NCBI GenBank assembly: GCA_027491355.1
Contig: JAIXWI010000029.1
Span: forward strand, 62,001 to 126,000
From: Bacteroidota bacterium
Lineage (GTDB): Bacteria; Bacteroidota; Bacteroidia; UKL13-3
Length of the DNA stretch: 64,000 nt
Reading direction: 5' to 3'
In this document: piece after piece, positions 4,065-14,029 of the stretch
Layout: the number at the start of each line of letters is the position of its first letter
Numbering within the stretch: the stretch's first letter is position 1
The notes under the pieces: generated by a model
Seen by the model: only the letters and a program-made list of their open reading frames with translations
What the model was told of the DNA's origin: nothing
The model's database searches: none
Translations under genes and position numbers: made by a program

Positions 4065-6026
4065 TTAGGTTCCAGGTTCAGTCCAGTCTCCATTTTGCTT
4101 GATAATATCTATCAATTCTAGAACGGCACTTTCCGATTGCACCCCCTTTTTAACAACTTCTTTTCCTTTGTACAAAGTTATCTTTCCAGGACCTGAACCT
4201 ACATAACCATAATCTGCATCAGCCATTTCACCCGGGCCATTGACAATACAACCCATGATGGCAATCTTTACACCTTTTAAGTGGTCAGTAACTTTTCTAA
4301 TTTTGGCGGTTGTTTCTTGTAAATCAAACAAGGTTCTTCCACAGCTCGGGCAACTAATGTATTCTGTCTTGCTAATTCTTGCTCTAGCTGCCTGACATAT
4401 GCCAAAAGACAAGTCGTTGACTAACTGAGCATTACAATTATTAGCACTCAACATCAATCCATCTCCCATGCCATCAATTAATAAAGTACCAAAATCAGAT
4501 GCTGTTTGCAACATCACTTGTTCAAACGGTAATTCTGAAACTGGGTTGATGACAATTGGCCCCAGAAAACCTTTTTGTTTTAAGAAAAAAATACAGTTTC
4601 TAAAGTCCATCAAAGGTGCCTTAGATTGACTGTTTATAACTAATACTGCTTGAGGAATTGACTGTAATTGATTGATGAAATCGGCTTGTATTTGACTGGT
4701 TGTAACATGAATAAAATTAAGACCAGATGAATAAATGGTATTGTTGTGTAATTGTTCTATTTTGAACATTGGATATGCACCAATTTTTTGATTCAGCTTC
4801 ACCCAAGTAGCTGCATTGTAGATGGCAGCCATTCCCATTGGTAGCATAAAATCAGCCTGAAGATCTCCTAAATAGAGGAAATCAGCACCCAAATCAGACA
4901 TTTTCCATTTGTCATTGATGACATCAAATTGATAGCCAATGGCAGACAAATCTGAGGGCATTATGGCTTTACTTTTGCTAAAATCTGCAAAAATTCTTGG
5001 CACCTGTTCACCGCCAATATTTAGCATTTCCTTACTTTTTAATTTTGTATATTGATAAGGGTTCCAGGTGGTTGTTGAATTGGAATCAATTTTTGGCATT
5101 TCATTTTCAAGTTCAACTACTGGCTGTTCTATTGTCAATCCAGTTCTTGACTGATACCTTTTTACCAAATCTCTTGCTACTGGGATTTCGAATTCTGGAT
5201 CTTCTGTTAAAGATACCCTAACGGTGTCACCTATACCATCTTCTAACAAAGCACCTATGCCCAACGCTGATTTAATTCTTCCATCATTGCCATCACCTGC
5301 TTCAGTTACCCCTAAATGCAATGGATAATGAAAATTGTTCTCATCCATGGTTTTCACCAATAATCGGTATGCTTGAACCATCACTTGAGGGTTGCTTGAT
5401 TTCATACTCAATACAATATTATGAAAACCCTCATTGTTAGCTATTCTTAAAAACTCCATGGCTGATTCTACCATTCCAAGAGGAGTATCTCCATACCTGC
5501 TCATAATTCGGTCGCTTAAGCTACCATGGTTTGTTCCTATTCTTAAAGCCGTGCCATACTCTTTACAAATTTGAATTAAGGGGACAAATTTCTGTCTAAT
5601 TCGGTCTATTTCTTCTTGATACTGGGCATCTGTGTACTCAATCAAATCGAAGCGTTTTTTATCAGCATAATTACCCGGATTGATGCGAACTTTTTCTACT
5701 ATTCTAGCTGCCATTTCAGCCGCATTGGGTGTAAAATGAATATCAGCTACTAATGGAATATTGACACCGTGTTGTTTTAACGACAATTTAATCTGTTCAA
5801 GGTTACGAGCCTCATTGATACTTGGTGCAGTTAGTCTTACCAATTCACACCCAGCTTCTACCAATTTTAAAATTTGAGCTACTGAACCTTTGGTATCCAT
5901 GGTGTCTGTAGTAGTCATACTTTGAACACGAATTGGATAATCACTTCCTAAATATAAATCACCAATACGTACTTGAACTGTTTGTCTGCGTTGGTATTTT
6001 ACTAAACTAGCGCTAAATGTTTTCAT
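4065..6026 (-). CDS. ispG: (E)-4-hydroxy-3-methylbut-2-enyl-diphosphate synthase (flavodoxin), long insert form
   Basis: Penultimate enzyme of the MEP isoprenoid pathway, converting MEcPP to HMBPP with a [4Fe-4S] cluster. The N-terminal TIM-barrel begins RRQTVQVRIGDLYLGSDYPIRVQSMTTTDTMDT. The C-terminal cluster domain has CPSCGR (Cys559, Cys562) and MGCIVNGPGEMADADYGYVG (Cys593). At 653 residues it is far longer than the roughly 370-residue E. coli enzyme. The extra 250 or so residues lie between barrel and cluster domain, the form known from Bacteroidota, Chlamydiae and plants. All three cluster cysteines are present. It lies 3 bases downstream of the SDR gene and is probably cotranscribed with it. 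Confidence 0.96.
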   Translation of the reverse strand: MKTFSASLVKYQRRQTVQVRIGDLYLGSDYPIRVQSMTTTDTMDTKGSVAQILKLVEAGCELVRLTAPSINEARNLEQIKLSLKQHGVNIPLVADIHFTPNAAEMAARIVEKVRINPGNYADKKRFDLIEYTDAQYQEEIDRIRQKFVPLIQICKEYGTALRIGTNHGSLSDRIMSRYGDTPLGMVESAMEFLRIANNEGFHNIVLSMKSSNPQVMVQAYRLLVKTMDENNFHYPLHLGVTEAGDGNDGRIKSALGIGALLEDGIGDTVRVSLTEDPEFEIPVARDLVKRYQSRTGLTIEQPVVELENEMPKIDSNSTTTWNPYQYTKLKSKEMLNIGGEQVPRIFADFSKSKAIMPSDLSAIGYQFDVINDKWKMSDLGADFLYLGDLQADFMLPMGMAAIYNAATWVKLNQKIGAYPMFKIEQLHNNTIYSSGLNFIHVTTSQIQADFINQLQSIPQAVLVINSQSKAPLMDFRNCIFFLKQKGFLGPIVINPVSELPFEQVMLQTASDFGTLLIDGMGDGLMLSANNCNAQLVNDLSFGICQAARARISKTEYISCPSCGRTLFDLQETTAKIRKVTDHLKGVKIAIMGCIVNGPGEMADADYGYVGSGPGKITLYKGKEVVKKGVQSESAVLELIDIIKQNGDWTEPGT

Positions 6027-6746: not shown

Positions 6747-6877
6747 GGTTTATTTGTTCTGCTTGCGAAGTTATTTGAAACGGGTCTATTTTTTTAATTA
6801 ATTTGAACACAATAAAATATTCGCAAATAGGCAATCTTTTAATTTATTTTTGACCCAACAGATATTTGAATTACAGC

Positions 6878-7621
6878 ATGAAATACCTCAATCTATTCGG
6901 CGAATACTTATTGTTTTTAAAACGCAGCATTGGTAAACCTGAAAAATTCAAAATGTTTAGAGAATTGTTTGTCCGTGATTTATATAAAATGGGCAACGAT
7001 TCATTTGGCATTGTTTCAATCATTTCTATTTTCATTGGAGCGGTTGCAGCCATCCAAATTGGCTACCAATTGGTAGGGAGTTTAGTTCCGATGTATGTAT
7101 TGGGGAGGATTGTTCGTGACTCTAATATTTTAGAATTTTCTCCTACTGTAACCGCCTTGGTCATGGCAGGTAAAATTGGTGGAAACATTGCTTCAGAAAT
7201 TGGCACCATGAAAGTGAGCGAACAAATTGATGCGCTTGAAATTATGGGAGTAAACTCAGCTAAACATGTTGTACTTCCTAAGTTAGCAGCAAGTATCATT
7301 GCAATTCCAGCATTGGTAATATACTCCATGTTCCTATCTAATTTAGGCGGTATCATTTCTGTTAATTTTTCGGGAATTGTTTCAGTTAGTGGATACATTC
7401 AAGGTTTGTTAATGGATTTTGACGGATTCTCAATTACATATGCCCTCACCAAAGCATTTACATTTTCTTTTTTAATTACAACCATCTCTGCTGCCCATGG
7501 ATACAAGACTGAAGGTGGTGCTTTAGAGGTAGGCTGGGCCAGTACTCGGGCTGTGGTTCAAAGCTGTATTGCCATCATCTTTTTTGATTTCATCCTAACA
7601 CAAATCATGCTTTACAAATGA
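6878..7621 (+). CDS. mlaE: MlaE/YrbE-family ABC transporter permease
   Basis: Inner-membrane permease of a phospholipid/sterol-type ABC transporter (MlaE/TTG2B family), 247 residues with about five hydrophobic segments. Typical signatures are present: IGAVAAIQIGYQL, the conserved loop EFSPTVTALVMAGKIGGNIASEIGTMKVSEQIDALEIMG, and a C-terminal GGALEVGWASTRAVV stretch. I chose the ATG at 6878 rather than a TTG four codons upstream. A TATTTTTG -7-like box lies at 6845-6852, without a clear -33 element. The stop overlaps the start of the ATPase gene (ATGA). Transport direction cannot be read from sequence; family members move lipid between the membranes. Confidence 0.9.
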   Translation: MKYLNLFGEYLLFLKRSIGKPEKFKMFRELFVRDLYKMGNDSFGIVSIISIFIGAVAAIQIGYQLVGSLVPMYVLGRIVRDSNILEFSPTVTALVMAGKIGGNIASEIGTMKVSEQIDALEIMGVNSAKHVVLPKLAASIIAIPALVIYSMFLSNLGGIISVNFSGIVSVSGYIQGLLMDFDGFSITYALTKAFTFSFLITTISAAHGYKTEGGALEVGWASTRAVVQSCIAIIFFDFILTQIMLYK

Positions 7622-8346
7622 TAGAACTTAAAAATATCAACAAATCATTTGAGGGGAAACAGGTTTTGTTTGATGTCTCTGCTCAATTCGAAAAAGGAAA
7701 ATGTTCATTTGTGATAGGTGCAAGTGGCGGCGGAAAAAGTGTACTCATGAAAACAATGGTTGGCCTATTGGTTCCAGAATCAGGCAATATCAATTTTGAT
7801 GGAAGAGACTTTTTGAATATTGCATACGAAGAAAAAAAAGTAATCCGACAAGAAATTGGCATGTTATTTCAAGGGGGTGCATTGTTTGACTCTTTATCAG
7901 TTGAAGACAATGTGGCATTCCCATTGAGAATGTTTACCAATTGGAGTAAAGAACAAGTATTGGAAAGAGTGAATTTCTGTTTAAAAAGAGTGAACCTAGA
8001 AAATTCTAATCAATTGTTTCCTTCAAATATCAGCGGGGGTATGAAAAAAAGGGTGGGTATTGCCAGAGCAATTGCATTGAATCCTAAATATTTGTTTTGT
8101 GATGAACCTAACAGTGGTTTAGACCCTATTACCTCACGCTTGATTGATGAACTCATTGCTGAAATTACACAAGAATTCAACATTACAACGGTCATCAATT
8201 CACATGACATGAAAAGTGTTTTTGACATGAGTGATCAAGTTACTTTTATGTACAAAGGAAAAGCCTGGTGGAAGGGGAATAAAGAAGCCATCAGAGATTC
8301 AAACTGTAAAGAACTCATAGATTTTATAAAGGCCAGTGAATTCTAA
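7618..8346 (+). CDS. mlaF: ABC transporter ATP-binding protein, MlaF type
   Basis: A 242-residue ATPase partner of the MlaE-like permease, sharing a 4-base ATGA overlap with it. It has Walker A GASGGGKS (residues 34-41), a Q-loop in MLFQGGALFDSLSV, signature ISGGMKKRVGIARAIA, Walker B KYLFCDEP and the switch His in VINSHDM. FQGGALFDSL and GGMKKR are typical of the Mla/Ttg2A clade. No MlaD/MCE substrate-binding gene follows; a heme-lipoprotein gene begins 9 bases later. The MCE partner is presumably encoded elsewhere. Confidence 0.92.
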   Translation: MIELKNINKSFEGKQVLFDVSAQFEKGKCSFVIGASGGGKSVLMKTMVGLLVPESGNINFDGRDFLNIAYEEKKVIRQEIGMLFQGGALFDSLSVEDNVAFPLRMFTNWSKEQVLERVNFCLKRVNLENSNQLFPSNISGGMKKRVGIARAIALNPKYLFCDEPNSGLDPITSRLIDELIAEITQEFNITTVINSHDMKSVFDMSDQVTFMYKGKAWWKGNKEAIRDSNCKELIDFIKASEF

Positions 8347-8355
8347 TTTAAAGCT

Positions 8356-8817
8356 ATGCATTTGAGAATAATTTCAACAGTTCTATTCGTACTTACTTTG
8401 GTACTAGGTTGCTCGCACTTAGACGAAAATGAGAATGATATTGAAGAAAGTACAGCAACTGAACATTCCCACAATACAGGAAAAAATTGTAGTAGCTGTC
8501 ACAATTCAAATGGGAATGAGGCTAGTAGTTTGTGGTGGACAGTGGCTGGGAGTGTATACAACAGCAACAATAAACCTGTAAACAATGTTTCCATAGAATT
8601 GAGAGATAATAAAAACAGAACCGGAAATTTAATCAAACAAATTACCAGCGATTTGAGTGGAAACTTTTACACCAATCAGATTGTTAATTTTAAGAATGGA
8701 TTGTATCCTGTAATTGTTAGTGGAAATACAGTTAAAACAATGCAATCCCCATTCAATGGTGGAAGTTGTAATTCTTGTCACAATGGAATCTCTACAGCTA
8801 TTTTAAAAATCAATTAA
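8356..8817 (+). CDS. Lipoprotein with two CxxCH heme-type motifs
   Basis: A 153-residue predicted lipoprotein (signal LFVLTLVLGC; lipid Cys about residue 19). Two c-type heme-attachment motifs are visible: CSSCH near the N-terminus and CNSCH near the C-terminus. Between them lies a stretch resembling a carboxypeptidase-regulatory-like beta-sandwich (SVYNSNNKPVNNVSIELRDNKN). A diheme electron carrier on the outer face of a membrane is plausible. The family is not one I can name, and metal binding without heme is possible. It starts 9 bases after mlaF and is followed after 1 base by a second CxxCH lipoprotein. Confidence 0.65.
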   Translation: MHLRIISTVLFVLTLVLGCSHLDENENDIEESTATEHSHNTGKNCSSCHNSNGNEASSLWWTVAGSVYNSNNKPVNNVSIELRDNKNRTGNLIKQITSDLSGNFYTNQIVNFKNGLYPVIVSGNTVKTMQSPFNGGSCNSCHNGISTAILKIN

Positions 8818-8818
8818 T

Positions 8819-9160
8819 ATGAAATTACATTTAGCATTTTGCTCCTGCTTGTTTTTTGTTTTAAGCGCATGTTATTACGACAAAGCCGAAGAGCTTTATC
8901 CTAATAATTACAACCAAACCGATACAAGTGCAGCTACTTATGCCGCACATATTGCTCCTTTGATCAACACCAAGTGCATGAATTGTCACAATACAACAGC
9001 GCCTATTTTAGGAGATTACTCGAAACTAAAAATCATCATCGACAATGGCTCGTTCAACAACCGTGTCATGGTTCAAAAAAACATGCCTCCAAGTGGCTTA
9101 TCAATTTCAGAGTTGTCAAAAATTCAAAAATGGTTGAATGCAGGAGCATTGAACAATTAA
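8819..9160 (+). CDS. Small lipoprotein with cytochrome c-like CxxCH motif
   Basis: A 113-residue predicted lipoprotein (LFFVLSAC, lipid Cys about 18). It has one c-type heme motif in the context YAAHIAPLINTKCMNCHNTTAPILGDYSKL, the usual N-terminal helix of single-domain cytochrome c-like proteins in Bacteroidota. The late sequence VMVQKNMPPSGLSISELSKIQKWLNAGA supplies a Met in an MPPSG context, the expected distal ligand region. Its ATG lies 1 base after the stop of the preceding lipoprotein gene. It is likely an electron carrier working with the neighbouring proteins; no substrate can be assigned. Confidence 0.75.
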   Translation: MKLHLAFCSCLFFVLSACYYDKAEELYPNNYNQTDTSAATYAAHIAPLINTKCMNCHNTTAPILGDYSKLKIIIDNGSFNNRVMVQKNMPPSGLSISELSKIQKWLNAGALNN

Positions 9161-9172
9161 AATGTGATTAAA

Positions 9173-10081
9173 ATGAAGAGAATTTTAGTTTTAATAGGCA
9201 CGTTGGTAACTTTCAATTTGTTTGCTCAAGATGATTTAATGAAGGAACTGCAAGACATGAGCCCAAGTAAGCCCAACCCTATTTATGCCACTTTTAAGTC
9301 GACCCGAATCATTACAGGTCAGAGCATTGAACACATTGCTGCCAAACACTTAAACTTGGTTATACTTCACCGCTTTGGTGAAATCAATGGAGGAGCCTAT
9401 ACCTTATGGGGGATAGACCAAGCCAATATGCGCATTGCATTAGAATATGGCATCAATGATAAATTACAAATTGGTTTGGGCAGAAGTAGCATTGGTAAAA
9501 CATACGATGGCAATGTGAAATGGAAAATTTTGGCACAATCAAAAGGCAAGGGCGGTATGCCTATAAGCTTGGGGTATTATGGCAATATTGCTATAAACAC
9601 CTTGGAATGGGCCGATCCAACCATAGACAATTATTTTACTTCCAGATTAACCTATTTTCACCAATTGAACATTGCAAAAAAAATAAACGAATATGTGAGT
9701 TTACAAATTGCACCAACATTGGTGCACCAGAACATTGTAGATAAAATTGCAGACAAAAACAGCACTTTTGCAATAGGATTGGGTGGTAGTTTTAAACTAT
9801 CAAGAAGTGTGCGATTTAACATAGAATACTATCCTAGACTTACAGCCAGAGAACAGTTAACAAACAATGGAGTCAGAGCATACGACTATTTAGGAATAGG
9901 TTTTGATATTGAAACAGGAGGTCATGTATTTCAATTGATGTTTACCAATGGTGATGGCATGCTAGAACAACAAATGGTAAGAGAGACCAAAACACAATGG
10001 AGCAATGCCGGGATTAGACTTGGCTTTAACATTGCACGTACTTTTTCTTTTGACAATCAAAAAACAAACAAAACATGGTAA
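9173..10081 (+). CDS. DUF5777 family beta-barrel protein
   Basis: A 302-residue protein with a signal peptide (MKRILVLIGTLVTFNLFAQ) and a body of alternating beta strands typical of outer-membrane barrels. The segment TFKSTRIITGQSIEHIAAKHLNLVILHRFGEINGGAYTLWGIDQANMRIALEYGI matches my recollection of the DUF5777 family. Start chosen at the ATG at 9173; an in-frame GTG three codons earlier is less likely. It lies between a CxxCH lipoprotein and a YceI-family gene, overlapping the latter by 7 bases. The arrangement suggests an outer-membrane module fed by heme lipoproteins. Function is unknown. Confidence 0.75.
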   Translation: MKRILVLIGTLVTFNLFAQDDLMKELQDMSPSKPNPIYATFKSTRIITGQSIEHIAAKHLNLVILHRFGEINGGAYTLWGIDQANMRIALEYGINDKLQIGLGRSSIGKTYDGNVKWKILAQSKGKGGMPISLGYYGNIAINTLEWADPTIDNYFTSRLTYFHQLNIAKKINEYVSLQIAPTLVHQNIVDKIADKNSTFAIGLGGSFKLSRSVRFNIEYYPRLTAREQLTNNGVRAYDYLGIGFDIETGGHVFQLMFTNGDGMLEQQMVRETKTQWSNAGIRLGFNIARTFSFDNQKTNKTW

Positions 10082-10644
10082 CATTTAAATTGAACGTATT
10101 AGCCAAACAAACCTTAATTGTATTGGCTTTGTTATTGTTTTCTAATTCAACAAAGGCTCAATTGTATATCACACAAAGTGGCATTGTGAGTTTTTTCTCA
10201 GCAACTGCAATGGAAAATATAGATGCCACCAACAAACAAGTAAAAACAATCTTAAACTCAAAGGGGGAATTGGTTTTTTTAATTGCCAATACAGAATTCA
10301 TTTTCCCGAACAAACTCATGCAAGAACATTTCAATGAAAAGTACATTGAAAGTGAAAAATACCCACAAAGTTCCTTCAAAGGAAAAATCAACGAATCTTT
10401 TGATTTAACTAAACCTGGCGAATATAATGTTACCGCTACCGGTAAGTTAAACATTCATGGTGTAGAACAAGAAAGAACCATTAATGGTAAAATAGTAGTA
10501 ACAGATAAAGATGTACAACTTGTTGCTATTTTTATTGTAAAACTAACCGATCATCATATCAAAATACCAAAGTTAATCATGGCAAAAATTGCAGAAGCTG
10601 TAGAAGTAAAAGTAAACTGTACTTTGCTCCCAAAGAGCAAATAA
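10075..10644 (+). CDS. YceI family periplasmic protein
   Basis: A 189-residue secreted protein. A signal peptide (LIVLALLLFSNSTKAQ) is followed by the YceI lipocalin-like fold. Recognisable strands are SGIVSFFSATAMENIDATNKQ, LVFLIANTEFIFPNKLMQEHFNEKYIESEKYPQSSFKGKI and GKLNIHGVEQERTINGKIVV. YceI proteins bind isoprenoid or fatty-acid-like ligands in a barrel. Here the gene is the last of a four-gene operon with two CxxCH lipoproteins and the DUF5777 barrel, so a quinone-like or polyprenyl ligand is a reasonable inference. It overlaps its upstream neighbour by 7 bases and ends 5 bases before the convergent icmF gene with no visible terminator. Confidence 0.88.
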   Translation: MVTFKLNVLAKQTLIVLALLLFSNSTKAQLYITQSGIVSFFSATAMENIDATNKQVKTILNSKGELVFLIANTEFIFPNKLMQEHFNEKYIESEKYPQSSFKGKINESFDLTKPGEYNVTATGKLNIHGVEQERTINGKIVVTDKDVQLVAIFIVKLTDHHIKIPKLIMAKIAEAVEVKVNCTLLPKSK

Positions 10645-10648
10645 GCTG

Positions 10649-13600
10649 TTACATATTTCTTCTGTACTGGCCTCCAACCTCAAACAATGCCTTAGTGATT
10701 TGTCCTAAAGAGCAGTATTTTACAGTTTCCATCAACTCTTCAAAGATATTTTGATTTTGTATGGCTTTGTATTGCAATGTTTTGAGCATCTCCTCCCCTT
10801 TGCTTGCGTTACCCTTTTTCATGTCATTCAACAATTGAATTTGGAATTCTTTTTCTTCAGTTGTTGATCGGATAACTTCTTTTGGCAATACGGTAGGAGA
10901 ACCTTTGCTAGATAAAAATGTATTTACCCCAATAATTGGAAACTCACCTGTATGTTTGAGTGTTTCGTAATACAAGCTTTCTTCCTGAATTTTGGTTCGT
11001 TGGTACATGGTTTCCATAGCACCCAAAACGCCACCTCTTTCAGTAATTCTATCAAATTCACTCAATACAGCTTCTTCAACCAAGTCGGTTAATTCTTCTA
11101 TGATGAATGAACCCTGTAATGGATTTTCATTTTTAGTCAATCCCAATTCTCGGTTAATGATTAATTGAATGGCCATGGCTCTTCTAACTGATTCCTCAGT
11201 TGGTGTGGTAATAGCTTCATCATATGCATTTGTATGTAACGAATTACAATTGTCATAAATGGCATACAATGCCTGAAGCGTGGTTCTGATATCGTTGAAA
11301 TCAATTTCTTGTGCATGCAAAGACCTACCAGAAGTTTGTATATGGTACTTTAACATTTGGCTGCGTTCATTTCCTTTGTATTTGAGCTTCATTGCTTTAG
11401 CCCAAATTCTTCTGGCAACCCTTCCTATGACTGCGTATTCAGGATCAATACCATTTGAGAAAAAGAACGATAAGTTTGGTGCAAAATCATCGATGTTCAT
11501 CCCCCTACTGAGGTAATATTCTACAAAAGTAAAACCATTAGACAAGGTTAATGCCAACTGTGTAATAGGATTCGCTCCTGCTTCTGCAATATGGTATCCA
11601 CTTATAGAAACAGAATAGAAATTTCTGATGCCGTTTTCAATAAAATATTGTTGCACATCGCCCATTACGCGCAACGAAAACTCCGTACTGAAAATACAGG
11701 TATTTTGTGCTTGGTCTTCTTTTAGAATATCAGCCTGTACTGTACCTCTAACTTGTTTGAGTGTTTCTGTTTTAATTTGTGTGTAAACTTCATGAGGCAA
11801 AACCATATCGCCTGTAACACCTAATAAAAGTAATCCTAAGCCATCATTCCCTTGAGGCAATGAATCGTTATAAACCGGACGTTCAACTCCTTTAGCTTTG
11901 TAAATATCATTTATTTTCTGATTGACTGCTTCTTCTAATCCATTCTTTTTGATATACAATTCGCATTGTTGGTCAATGGCTGCATTCATAAAGAAAGCAC
12001 AAATAATTGCAGCAGGCCCATTGATGGTCATTGAAACAGACGTCTTAGGGTCTGCCAAGTTGAATCCTGAATATAATTTTTTGGCCGCATCTAAATTCCA
12101 AACACTCACGCCTGAATTACCAATTTTCCCGTAAATATCTGGGCGATGGTCTGGATCATTTCCATACAATGTAACTGAATCAAATGCAGTACTCAAACGC
12201 GCAGCTGGCATTCCTAAACTTACATAATGAAAACGTTTGTTTGTTCTCTCCGGACCACCCTCTCCGGCAAACATGCGTGTTGGGTCTTCACCTTCTCTTT
12301 TAAATGGATAAATTCCTGCAGTATAAGGAAATTCACCTGGAAAATTTTCTTGTAAAACCCATTTTAAAATGTCGCCCCATGCTTGAAATTTTGGAACAGC
12401 AACTTTTGGAATTTCTAGTTGAGACAAAGAGGTAGAATGTGTTTTAATTTTAATTTCTTTGTCTCTTACCTTAAACACATAAAACTCATTGGTATATTGT
12501 GCTCTTTTCTGATCCCAATTTTCTAAAACCTTTTTGTTTCTTGGATCTAAATCCAATTCCAATTGTTCATAGGTGGCTTTCAAAGATTTTACGATTCTAT
12601 CTTTGTCTTCTAATTTGCCATTTTCAAGCAATTGAATGGTGGAATGCAAACCATGTAATTGGTTCGCAATTTGCACTTGGTTCTCTACCCATTGGTCATA
12701 AGCTCTGTTGTTTTCTGAAATCTCAGATAAATATCTTGTTCTTGCAGGAGGGATGATAAAAACTTTCTCGCTCATTTCATTGGTAACAACAAAATTTGAG
12801 TGCAAATCTGTTTTTGTTTTTTCAATGAGTTTGTCCATGACAGCCTTGTACAAAGTATTCATACCTGGGTCATTGAACTGAGATGCAATGGTACCATAAA
12901 CCGGCATTTCATCTGGATTTTGATCGAATAACTGGTGGTTGCGTTGAAATTGTTTTTTTACATCTCTCAATGCATCCAACGCACCTTTTTTGTCGAATTT
13001 ATTAATGGCAATGATATCGGCAAAATCCAACATGTCTATTTTCTCAAGTTGTGTTGCAGCTCCATATTCAGGTGTCATTACATACAAAGCCACATTGCTA
13101 TGGTCCATGATTTCTGTATCACTTTGACCAATTCCTGAAGTTTCTAAAACCACCAAGTCAAAGCCAGCAAATTTCATAATATCTACTGCTTCTTGCACGT
13201 GTTTTGAAAGGGCAAGATTACTTTGACGTGTGGCCAATGAACGCATGTAAACCCTGTTGTTTTTAATGGCATTCATTCTAATTCTATCACCCAATAAAGC
13301 ACCACCTGTTTTCTTTTTACTTGGATCTACAGAAATAATGGCAATGGTTTTATCTGTGAAATCATTCAAAAACCTTCTTACCAATTCATCTACTAAAGAC
13401 GATTTTCCTGCACCACCGGTTCCTGTAATGCCTAAAACTGGAATCAATGATTGATGCGCTTCATGGGTAATTTGTGCATATAATTTTTCAAAGTCTTGAG
13501 AATTGTTTTCTGCGAATGAGACCATTTGGGCAATGGCTTTCCAATTTCTTTGTTTTAACAATTCAGGCTTAAAATCTTGAATGATTCCTGTAGGGAAATC

Positions 13601-14029
13601 ACATTTAGAAAGCATGTCATTGATCATACCTTGAAGGCCCATGGCCCTCCCATCATCTGGATGGTAAATTCTGCAAATACCATAATTGTGAAGTGCTTCT
13701 ATTTCTTCAGGTAAAATGGTTCCTCCCCCCCCTCCAAAAATTCGAATGTGTTCACAGTTTTTTTCTTTCAATAAATCATACATGTATTTGAAGTACTCTA
13801 CATGTCCGCCTTGGTAGCTGGTCATGGCAATGGCATTTGCATCCTCCTGAATAGCGGTATTAACAACTTCTTCTGCACTTCTATCATGTCCTAAATGAAT
13901 GACTTCTGCGCCACTTGCTTGAATGATTCTGCGCATGATATTGATTGCCGCATCATGCCCATCAAACAAACTGGCAGCAGTAACTACTCTGATTTTATGT
14001 TTAGGAACGTATTTTTCTACCAAGTCCAT
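10649..14029 (-). CDS. icmF: Fused isobutyryl-CoA mutase IcmF (B12 domain, G-protein chaperone, mutase)
   Basis: A 1126-residue fusion. First comes an N-terminal B12-binding domain ([16 protein letters not shown], base-on His; [10 protein letters not shown]). Next is a MeaI-type GTPase chaperone (Walker [10 protein letters not shown] near residue 205; [21 protein letters not shown]). Last is the catalytic TIM-barrel. The substrate-selecting residues are Phe587 in RMFAGEGG and Gln775 in AQNTC. Methylmalonyl-CoA mutases have Tyr and Arg at these places, so isobutyryl-CoA/n-butyryl-CoA (or related branched acyl-CoA) isomerisation is indicated. The GTPase would load and repair adenosylcobalamin. 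The gene is alone on its strand with a good promoter; no separate large/small mutase subunits are nearby. Confidence 0.93.

Follow-up and report, generated by a model that had tools for sequence, protein, structure and literature searches.

Solved structures of the YceI family have isoprenoids or ubiquinone-8 bound; in Burkholderia, protection against lipid peroxyl radicals comes from a YceI protein, BcnA, together with LcoA, a cytochrome b561, and the authors propose that LcoA, whose cytochrome family uses bis-His haems, may re-reduce the quinone bound to BcnA (accessible part of PMC9113575). Two other kinds of described system join cytochromes to outer-membrane barrels: Cyc2, an Fe(II) oxidase with an N-terminal monohaem domain and a C-terminal barrel (accessible part of PMC6344600), and porin-cytochrome complexes of the MtrAB type, in which a barrel gene accompanies genes for c-type cytochromes with at least eight haems. 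The locus analysed here, in a window of 64,000 nucleotides from a Bacteroidota genome, resembles each of these in part. As in BcnA-LcoA, where the bound isoprenoid quinone is proposed to be kept reduced, the YceI gene goes with that of a redox partner in the membrane whose histidines are conserved (compared with the accessible part of PMC9113575), whereas here YceI is paired with a barrel of outer-membrane type and with periplasmic carriers that can replace one another, and the window's genome has no match to cytochrome b561 (PF01292) that could be linked to YceI. Like Cyc2 it combines a monohaem cytochrome c with a beta-barrel, whereas the window has these as separate genes and adds a YceI partner. 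Like MtrAB systems it sets c-type cytochrome genes beside a barrel gene, whereas its two cytochromes have two and one haem motifs, the C1-type relatives that were read carry one to three, and there is no decahaem partner. In the open-access journal literature we found no paper that names DUF5777 or PF19089 or gives a function for this barrel, and none that combines YceI, Rieske and c-type cytochrome; the accessible passages of one paper that mentions YceI, cytochromes and flavobacteria describe no such module, and the accessible main text of PMC9113575 has no word beginning with 'Bacteroid'.

The initial annotation had drawn a module from four genes, a two-CxxCH lipoprotein (C2), a one-CxxCH lipoprotein (C1), an uncharacterized barrel (DUF5777) and a YceI protein, which follow one another at distances of 1 and 12 bases and then overlap by 7. 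The coordinates, read again, agree with this packing (Table 1), and motifs and Pfam agree with the gene contents. The barrel is a full-length DUF5777 member (E 6.8e-92, 307.6 bits against a cut-off of 23.1, positions 1-247 of 247), for which an in-frame GTG also lies at 9164; YceI (PF04264) scores 41.8 bits against 23.7. C2, with two CXXCH motifs, falls within the multihaem CXXCH definition, marginally over the family cut-offs (Cytochrome_C7, 25.4 against 24.8; Paired_CXXCH_1, 24 against 20.6), and C1 matches no Pfam cytochrome family above its cut-off, its only hit being a sub-threshold one to PccH (E 0.0007). The genome (2.44 Mb) encodes a single DUF5777, three YceI proteins and cytochrome c assembly proteins. 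Identical gene order in same-genus genomes (L154-L155) rules out an artefact of window assembly.

Table 1. Genes and conserved motifs of the locus, in window positions
Feature	Position	Strand	Remarks
MlaE permease (PF02405)	6866..7621	+	first gene of the same-strand run
MlaF-like ABC ATPase	7618..8346	+	ends 9 bases before C2
C2, two-haem lipoprotein	8356..8817	+	153 aa; lipobox-like LVLGC
C2 first haem motif, CSSCH	8488..8502	+	residues 45-49; preceded by invariant His39
C2 second haem motif, CNSCH	8767..8781	+	residues 138-142
C1, putative monohaem class I cytochrome c lipoprotein	8819..9160	+	113 aa; lipobox-like LSAC; core electron carrier
C1 haem motif, CMNCH	8975..8989	+	residues 53-57
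C1 distal Met89-Pro90	9083..9088	+	likely axial ligand; invariant in alignment A6
DUF5777 (PF19089)	9173..10081	+	predicted 12-strand outer-membrane beta-barrel; ATG start at 9173
DUF5777 His66	9368..9370	+	strand 1, predicted lipid-facing by alternation; 219/220
DUF5777 His251	9923..9925	+	strand 11, predicted lipid-facing by alternation; 219/220
DUF5777 Arg289	10037..10039	+	strand 12, predicted lipid-facing by alternation; 218/220
YceI-family periplasmic lipocalin	10075..10644	+	apparent signal peptide

The same-strand run begins upstream of these four genes, at MlaE/MlaF (6866-8346). Just before MlaE, at 6845, lies the sole TAnnTTTG of the + strand between 6700 and 9200, which we take to be a Bacteroidota -7-like element, so that the six genes may share a single promoter. 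Close upstream on the - strand is the gene of the isoprenoid-precursor enzyme IspG (4065-6026), and a fused isobutyryl-CoA mutase, IcmF (10649-14029, - strand), converges on YceI from 4 bases away.

Of 247 genomes sampled evenly across the phylum Bacteroidota, 98 (~40%) carried DUF5777, as did 39 of 40 relatives and none of 14 control genomes. Neighbourhoods were read in batches (100 first, then 20 regions of which one was already included, 20 around C2 in relatives, 80 loci of named records and another 20); linkage was counted within three genes of DUF5777, a carrier being a C1 with a haem motif, a Rieske protein or a cupredoxin. Among the 114 phylum neighbourhoods with DUF5777 by profile, 91 had YceI, 102 a carrier and 83 both; the corresponding numbers were 70, 76 and 67 for the 79 of the named-record set, and 13, 15 and 13 for the 15 of the family set. 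These sets overlap in part (for example, L156 and L177 apparently come from one contig, judging from its length and gene order) and are therefore not summed. The linkage is sharply local: in the phylum sample YceI accounted for 97 of the 660 genes within three positions of DUF5777 vs. 5 of the 549 at positions four to six, and carriers for 121 of 660 vs. 5 of 549, a fall-off that rules out chance adjacency. Thus the grouping first seen in one genome recurs far beyond it. Weak Pfam matches missed by our own profile (L255-L258 and L260) are excluded from every count, while distant homologues without the His pair (L254 and L259) are in the neighbourhood counts given above and out of the positional control, barrel tree and residue conservation. 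Truncated members (L261 and L122) were omitted from the tree and from conservation, and five redundant sequences from conservation. The carriers of L048, L074 and L079, missed by the gene caller, were found by hand, but the 102 of 114 does not include this correction. Three loci (L069, L122 and L262) are close to the end of a contig.

The order C2-C1-DUF5777-YceI is typical of the window's family, and C1-YceI-DUF5777 is commoner elsewhere. On four plasmids of named Bacteroidota the barrel comes with YceI and a carrier in all four cases, and in three of them the small cytochrome bears the label 'hypothetical protein'. Plasmid unnamed5 of Hymenobacter volaticus (L297) holds two module copies, which are separated by genes that include a truncated haemoglobin and hemA. 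The module often has a fourth member, a tRNA_anti-like (OB-fold) protein (PF12869 in L035), seen in 22 of 114 phylum and 34 of 79 named-record loci. In other subtypes the barrel is accompanied by NrfD with 4Fe-4S subunits, or by a two-CxxCH protein, and these are among the 23 of 114 loci that lack YceI within three genes; YceI is thus not strictly needed. At L095 (4259-10565) DUF5777 clusters with a 4Fe-4S protein, NrfD and two cytochromes, with no YceI within three genes and with what is presumably a HlyD-like efflux part, and at L158 (6796-7308) an L,D-transpeptidase (YkuD) gene stands between DUF5777 and YceI. Sigma-70 ECF factors recur upstream of the module (a cluster of 33 loci, e.g. L057:9593-10135), as does a protein of ~426 aa in 18 loci, and envelope-stress control is possible. 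COX1 occurred in 236 of the 247 genomes, and all 11 genomes without it also lacked DUF5777; we give this oxygen link little weight, since 8 of the 11 come from one family, and COX1 is too widespread to test it well.

Among the 171 C1 genes of <200 aa near DUF5777, the haem site is CX2CH in 104, CX3CH in 7 and CX4CH in 59, the one exception being a 68-aa reading frame; the C1 haem motif proposed in the initial annotation is thus conserved in 170 of 171, and a distal Met-Pro in 168. The haem cysteines, the histidine and Met89-Pro90 are all invariant in alignment A6, of which one row (L094) is a different cytochrome of its cluster, and a profile search matched cytochrome c6 as well as c-subunits from the bc1 and cbb3 complexes. 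Judged by these motifs, C1 is a class I cytochrome c of lipoprotein-like type. Two- or three-domain cytochromes stand beside C1 in many loci, and at some loci C1 gives way to a Rieske protein (PF00355 in L036) or to a cupredoxin of plastocyanin/azurin type (PF00127 in L084); of 112 phylum loci, 10 had Rieske only and 3 cupredoxin only. A tree of 201 barrels requires 6 changes of the carrier label (the minimum possible being 2) and 4 of the Rieske label, values that are approximate because the tree was built with FastTree. Three unrelated one-electron carriers thus share one position in the module, and the only function common to them, single-electron transfer, is what the swaps retain. On the strength of these sequence patterns we consider electron transfer as such probable, and far more so than any particular direction or purpose for it.

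C2, which the initial annotation had counted with the rest, proved to be a more local component. Its two haem motifs are conserved, both sites being present in all 25 aligned rows (the second as CX4CH in L158), as is the His before the first site. C2 itself turned up in 28 of 40 relatives, with 23 of 24 inside the window's family (counting the window's own genome) and 5 of 16 beyond; common in that family and with a few relatives in the class, it is separate from the barrel in part of the genomes and is therefore an accessory. Its predicted structure is of moderate quality (pLDDT 72.8, with haem regions <60), and the middle of the protein resembles a transthyretin/carboxypeptidase-regulatory-like sandwich (Z up to 7.3, in the range where chance is possible), so that C2 may consist of haem sites flanking such a sandwich. 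MlaF lies at most three genes upstream of 14 of the 32 C2 genes, and MlaEF is linked to C2 rather than to the module core. This bears on a non-redox reading in which the module would traffic envelope lipids or isoprenoids and the haem proteins would act as sensors. MlaE and MlaF directly upstream, in the window and part of its relatives, invite it, as does the isoprenoid binding of YceI (accessible part of PMC9113575); with MlaEF going with C2 and not the core, and three different redox proteins swapping at one position, we regard it as very unlikely.

The AlphaFold2 model of DUF5777 has 12 strands (mean pLDDT 91.1), with hydrophobic and polar sides alternating in every one. By sequence there was no solved relative of note (best E 0.31). 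The closest folds were porins and transporters, namely FapF (Z 17.6, rmsd 3.5, 210 aligned), KdgM (Z 17.4, rmsd 2.1, 167 aligned) and NanC (Z 16.8, rmsd 3.2, 191 aligned); among the matches listed the porin-like ones had low TM-scores (0.32-0.51 by query length) and yielded no functional lead, so the fold search was set aside as a guide to function. Twelve-strand enzymes of the OMPLA and LpxR types were among the fold matches (Z 12.0 and 15.2). Over 220 unique sequences the most conserved residues were Phe285 and Gly284 (220), Phe253, His251, Gly80, Phe68 and His66 (219) and Arg289 (218). From strand alternation in the model, the triad of His66, His251 and Arg289 would lie on the hydrophobic, lipid-facing side and not in the lumen, on strands 1, 11 and 12, which are neighbours at the predicted barrel seam, and the tight turn preceding His251 should be periplasmic. 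A polar side chain turned towards lipid carries a cost if it serves no purpose. One member (L109) has His at position 289, and a single full-length member (L108) lacks both His and Arg, with all three triad residues lost (Asn, Leu, Phe); no haem, Rieske or cupredoxin gene lies near its barrel, and its genome has two further DUF5777 genes with cytochromes (L064 and L110). Since this is the one loss among full-length members, the link between triad and carrier amounts to one event, and L061, L081 and L090, which keep the triad with no carrier within three genes, speak against a strict rule.

The conserved patch could be structural, formed of an oligomer interface and a C-terminal assembly signal on an ordinary porin, the carriers being neighbours in a respiratory island. 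Arg289, Phe285 and other strand-12 residues may in part serve as such a signal, which the GFNxxRxF ending of many members resembles, the seam residues may form an oligomer interface, and porins and transporters (FapF, KdgM, NanC) are the best folds. We know of no assembly signal that includes an invariant lipid-facing His, however, and the carrier exchange together with a fusion described below favours a direct functional link, which leaves this explanation unlikely. A second account would make DUF5777 a b-type cytochrome of the outer membrane, His66 and His251 ligating a haem on the outer wall, Arg289 binding a propionate and the carrier exchanging electrons with it. The near-invariant His pair on strands 1 and 11 with Arg on strand 12 between suits this, both His were lost together in L108, and the b561 partner of the YceI protein in BcnA-LcoA is likewise bis-His (accessible part of PMC9113575). 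Yet the loss is a single event, the two His are about 10-16 Å apart on a rough register estimate, and none of the literature matches listed describes a b-haem in an outer-membrane barrel; we think this quite improbable.

At one locus (L276, in genome G030; the same gene as L130) carrier and barrel are one protein: a 421-aa single-frame fusion of a C1-type cytochrome to DUF5777 (10072-11337, - strand), with CX4CH and a distal Met-Pro in the N-terminal cytochrome and with the His66/His251/Arg289 triad retained; a second C1 gene adjoins it. The fusion has the Cyc2 order, N-terminal monohaem and C-terminal barrel, in a single protein, where the window has separate genes. Such an arrangement, the barrel's neighbouring cytochromes of one, two or three domains, and the putative porin-cytochrome and Cyc2-type genes reported in some Bacteroidetes (accessible part of PMC6344600) could suggest a split conduit of Cyc2-like or porin-cytochrome type, in which a monohaem carrier would plug the barrel or dock on it from the periplasmic side and electrons would pass across to or from extracellular partners such as Fe(II). 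We judge this unlikely: there is no multihaem wire, the conserved patch is predicted on the lipid side, the Rieske and cupredoxin proteins that stand in for C1 do not resemble surface oxidases, and YceI would be left unexplained. An outer-membrane barrel of even strand number has both ends in the periplasm, which should put the haem of the fusion on the periplasmic side. The initial annotation had offered, as a coherent reading, an electron-transfer path at the surface or outer membrane. Its envelope part gains from the conserved haem lipoprotein, the barrel, YceI, the three swapped carriers and the fusion; its route to the cell surface does not, given C1-type cytochromes of one to three haems, conserved strand residues predicted on the lipid side and barrel ends expected in the periplasm. 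A conduit that reaches the surface, though possible, finds no support.

The YceI profile (A5) matches the solved YceI chains 1y0g, 5ixg, 5ixh and 1wub, and by analogy with its family YceI would carry an isoprenoid. Another YceI of the same genome, without a signal peptide (L031), adjoins superoxide dismutase and, presumably, pirin. With no b561 match in the genome, the DUF5777 module could fill an LcoA-like role.

We therefore propose, tentatively and at somewhat below even chances for the reading as a whole, that C1, DUF5777 and YceI work together as a redox unit at the periplasmic face of the outer membrane. A lipid-anchored carrier, cytochrome c here and Rieske or cupredoxin elsewhere, would shuttle electrons one at a time between the periplasmic chain and a partner soluble in lipid, which might be a quinone, a lipid radical or haem; the docking site of this partner on the outer barrel wall would be His66-Arg289-His251, close to where the seam of strands 11, 12 and 1 meets the periplasm. 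YceI would ferry, hold, supply or collect an isoprenoid, most likely menaquinone, so that the unit could keep an outer-membrane quinol pool reduced and quench lipid radicals, working in a manner akin to the BcnA-LcoA antioxidant pair. NrfD and 4Fe-4S proteins are quinone-linked subunits, and in a subset of loci the barrel adjoins both, in favour of this redox unit; the cytochrome c assembly proteins of the window's genome and the superoxide dismutase beside another of its YceI genes also count for it. The more specific view that DUF5777 is itself an outer-membrane redox protein, with an active site on its lipid-facing wall (haem or quinone at the triad) served by the carriers and by YceI as quinone shuttle, seems to us rather doubtful.

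The barrel occurs in ~40% of sampled Bacteroidota genomes, yet in the open-access journal literature we found no paper on it, and its linkage to carrier and YceI suggests an overlooked outer-membrane redox device of many Bacteroidota. The exchange of three carrier folds offers a handle on the function of the module. If the proposal is true, a redox chain would reach and work in the outer membrane of Bacteroidota, with quinone- or haem-based redox chemistry there, and the role of YceI, long unclear, would become testable in a second, independent setting.
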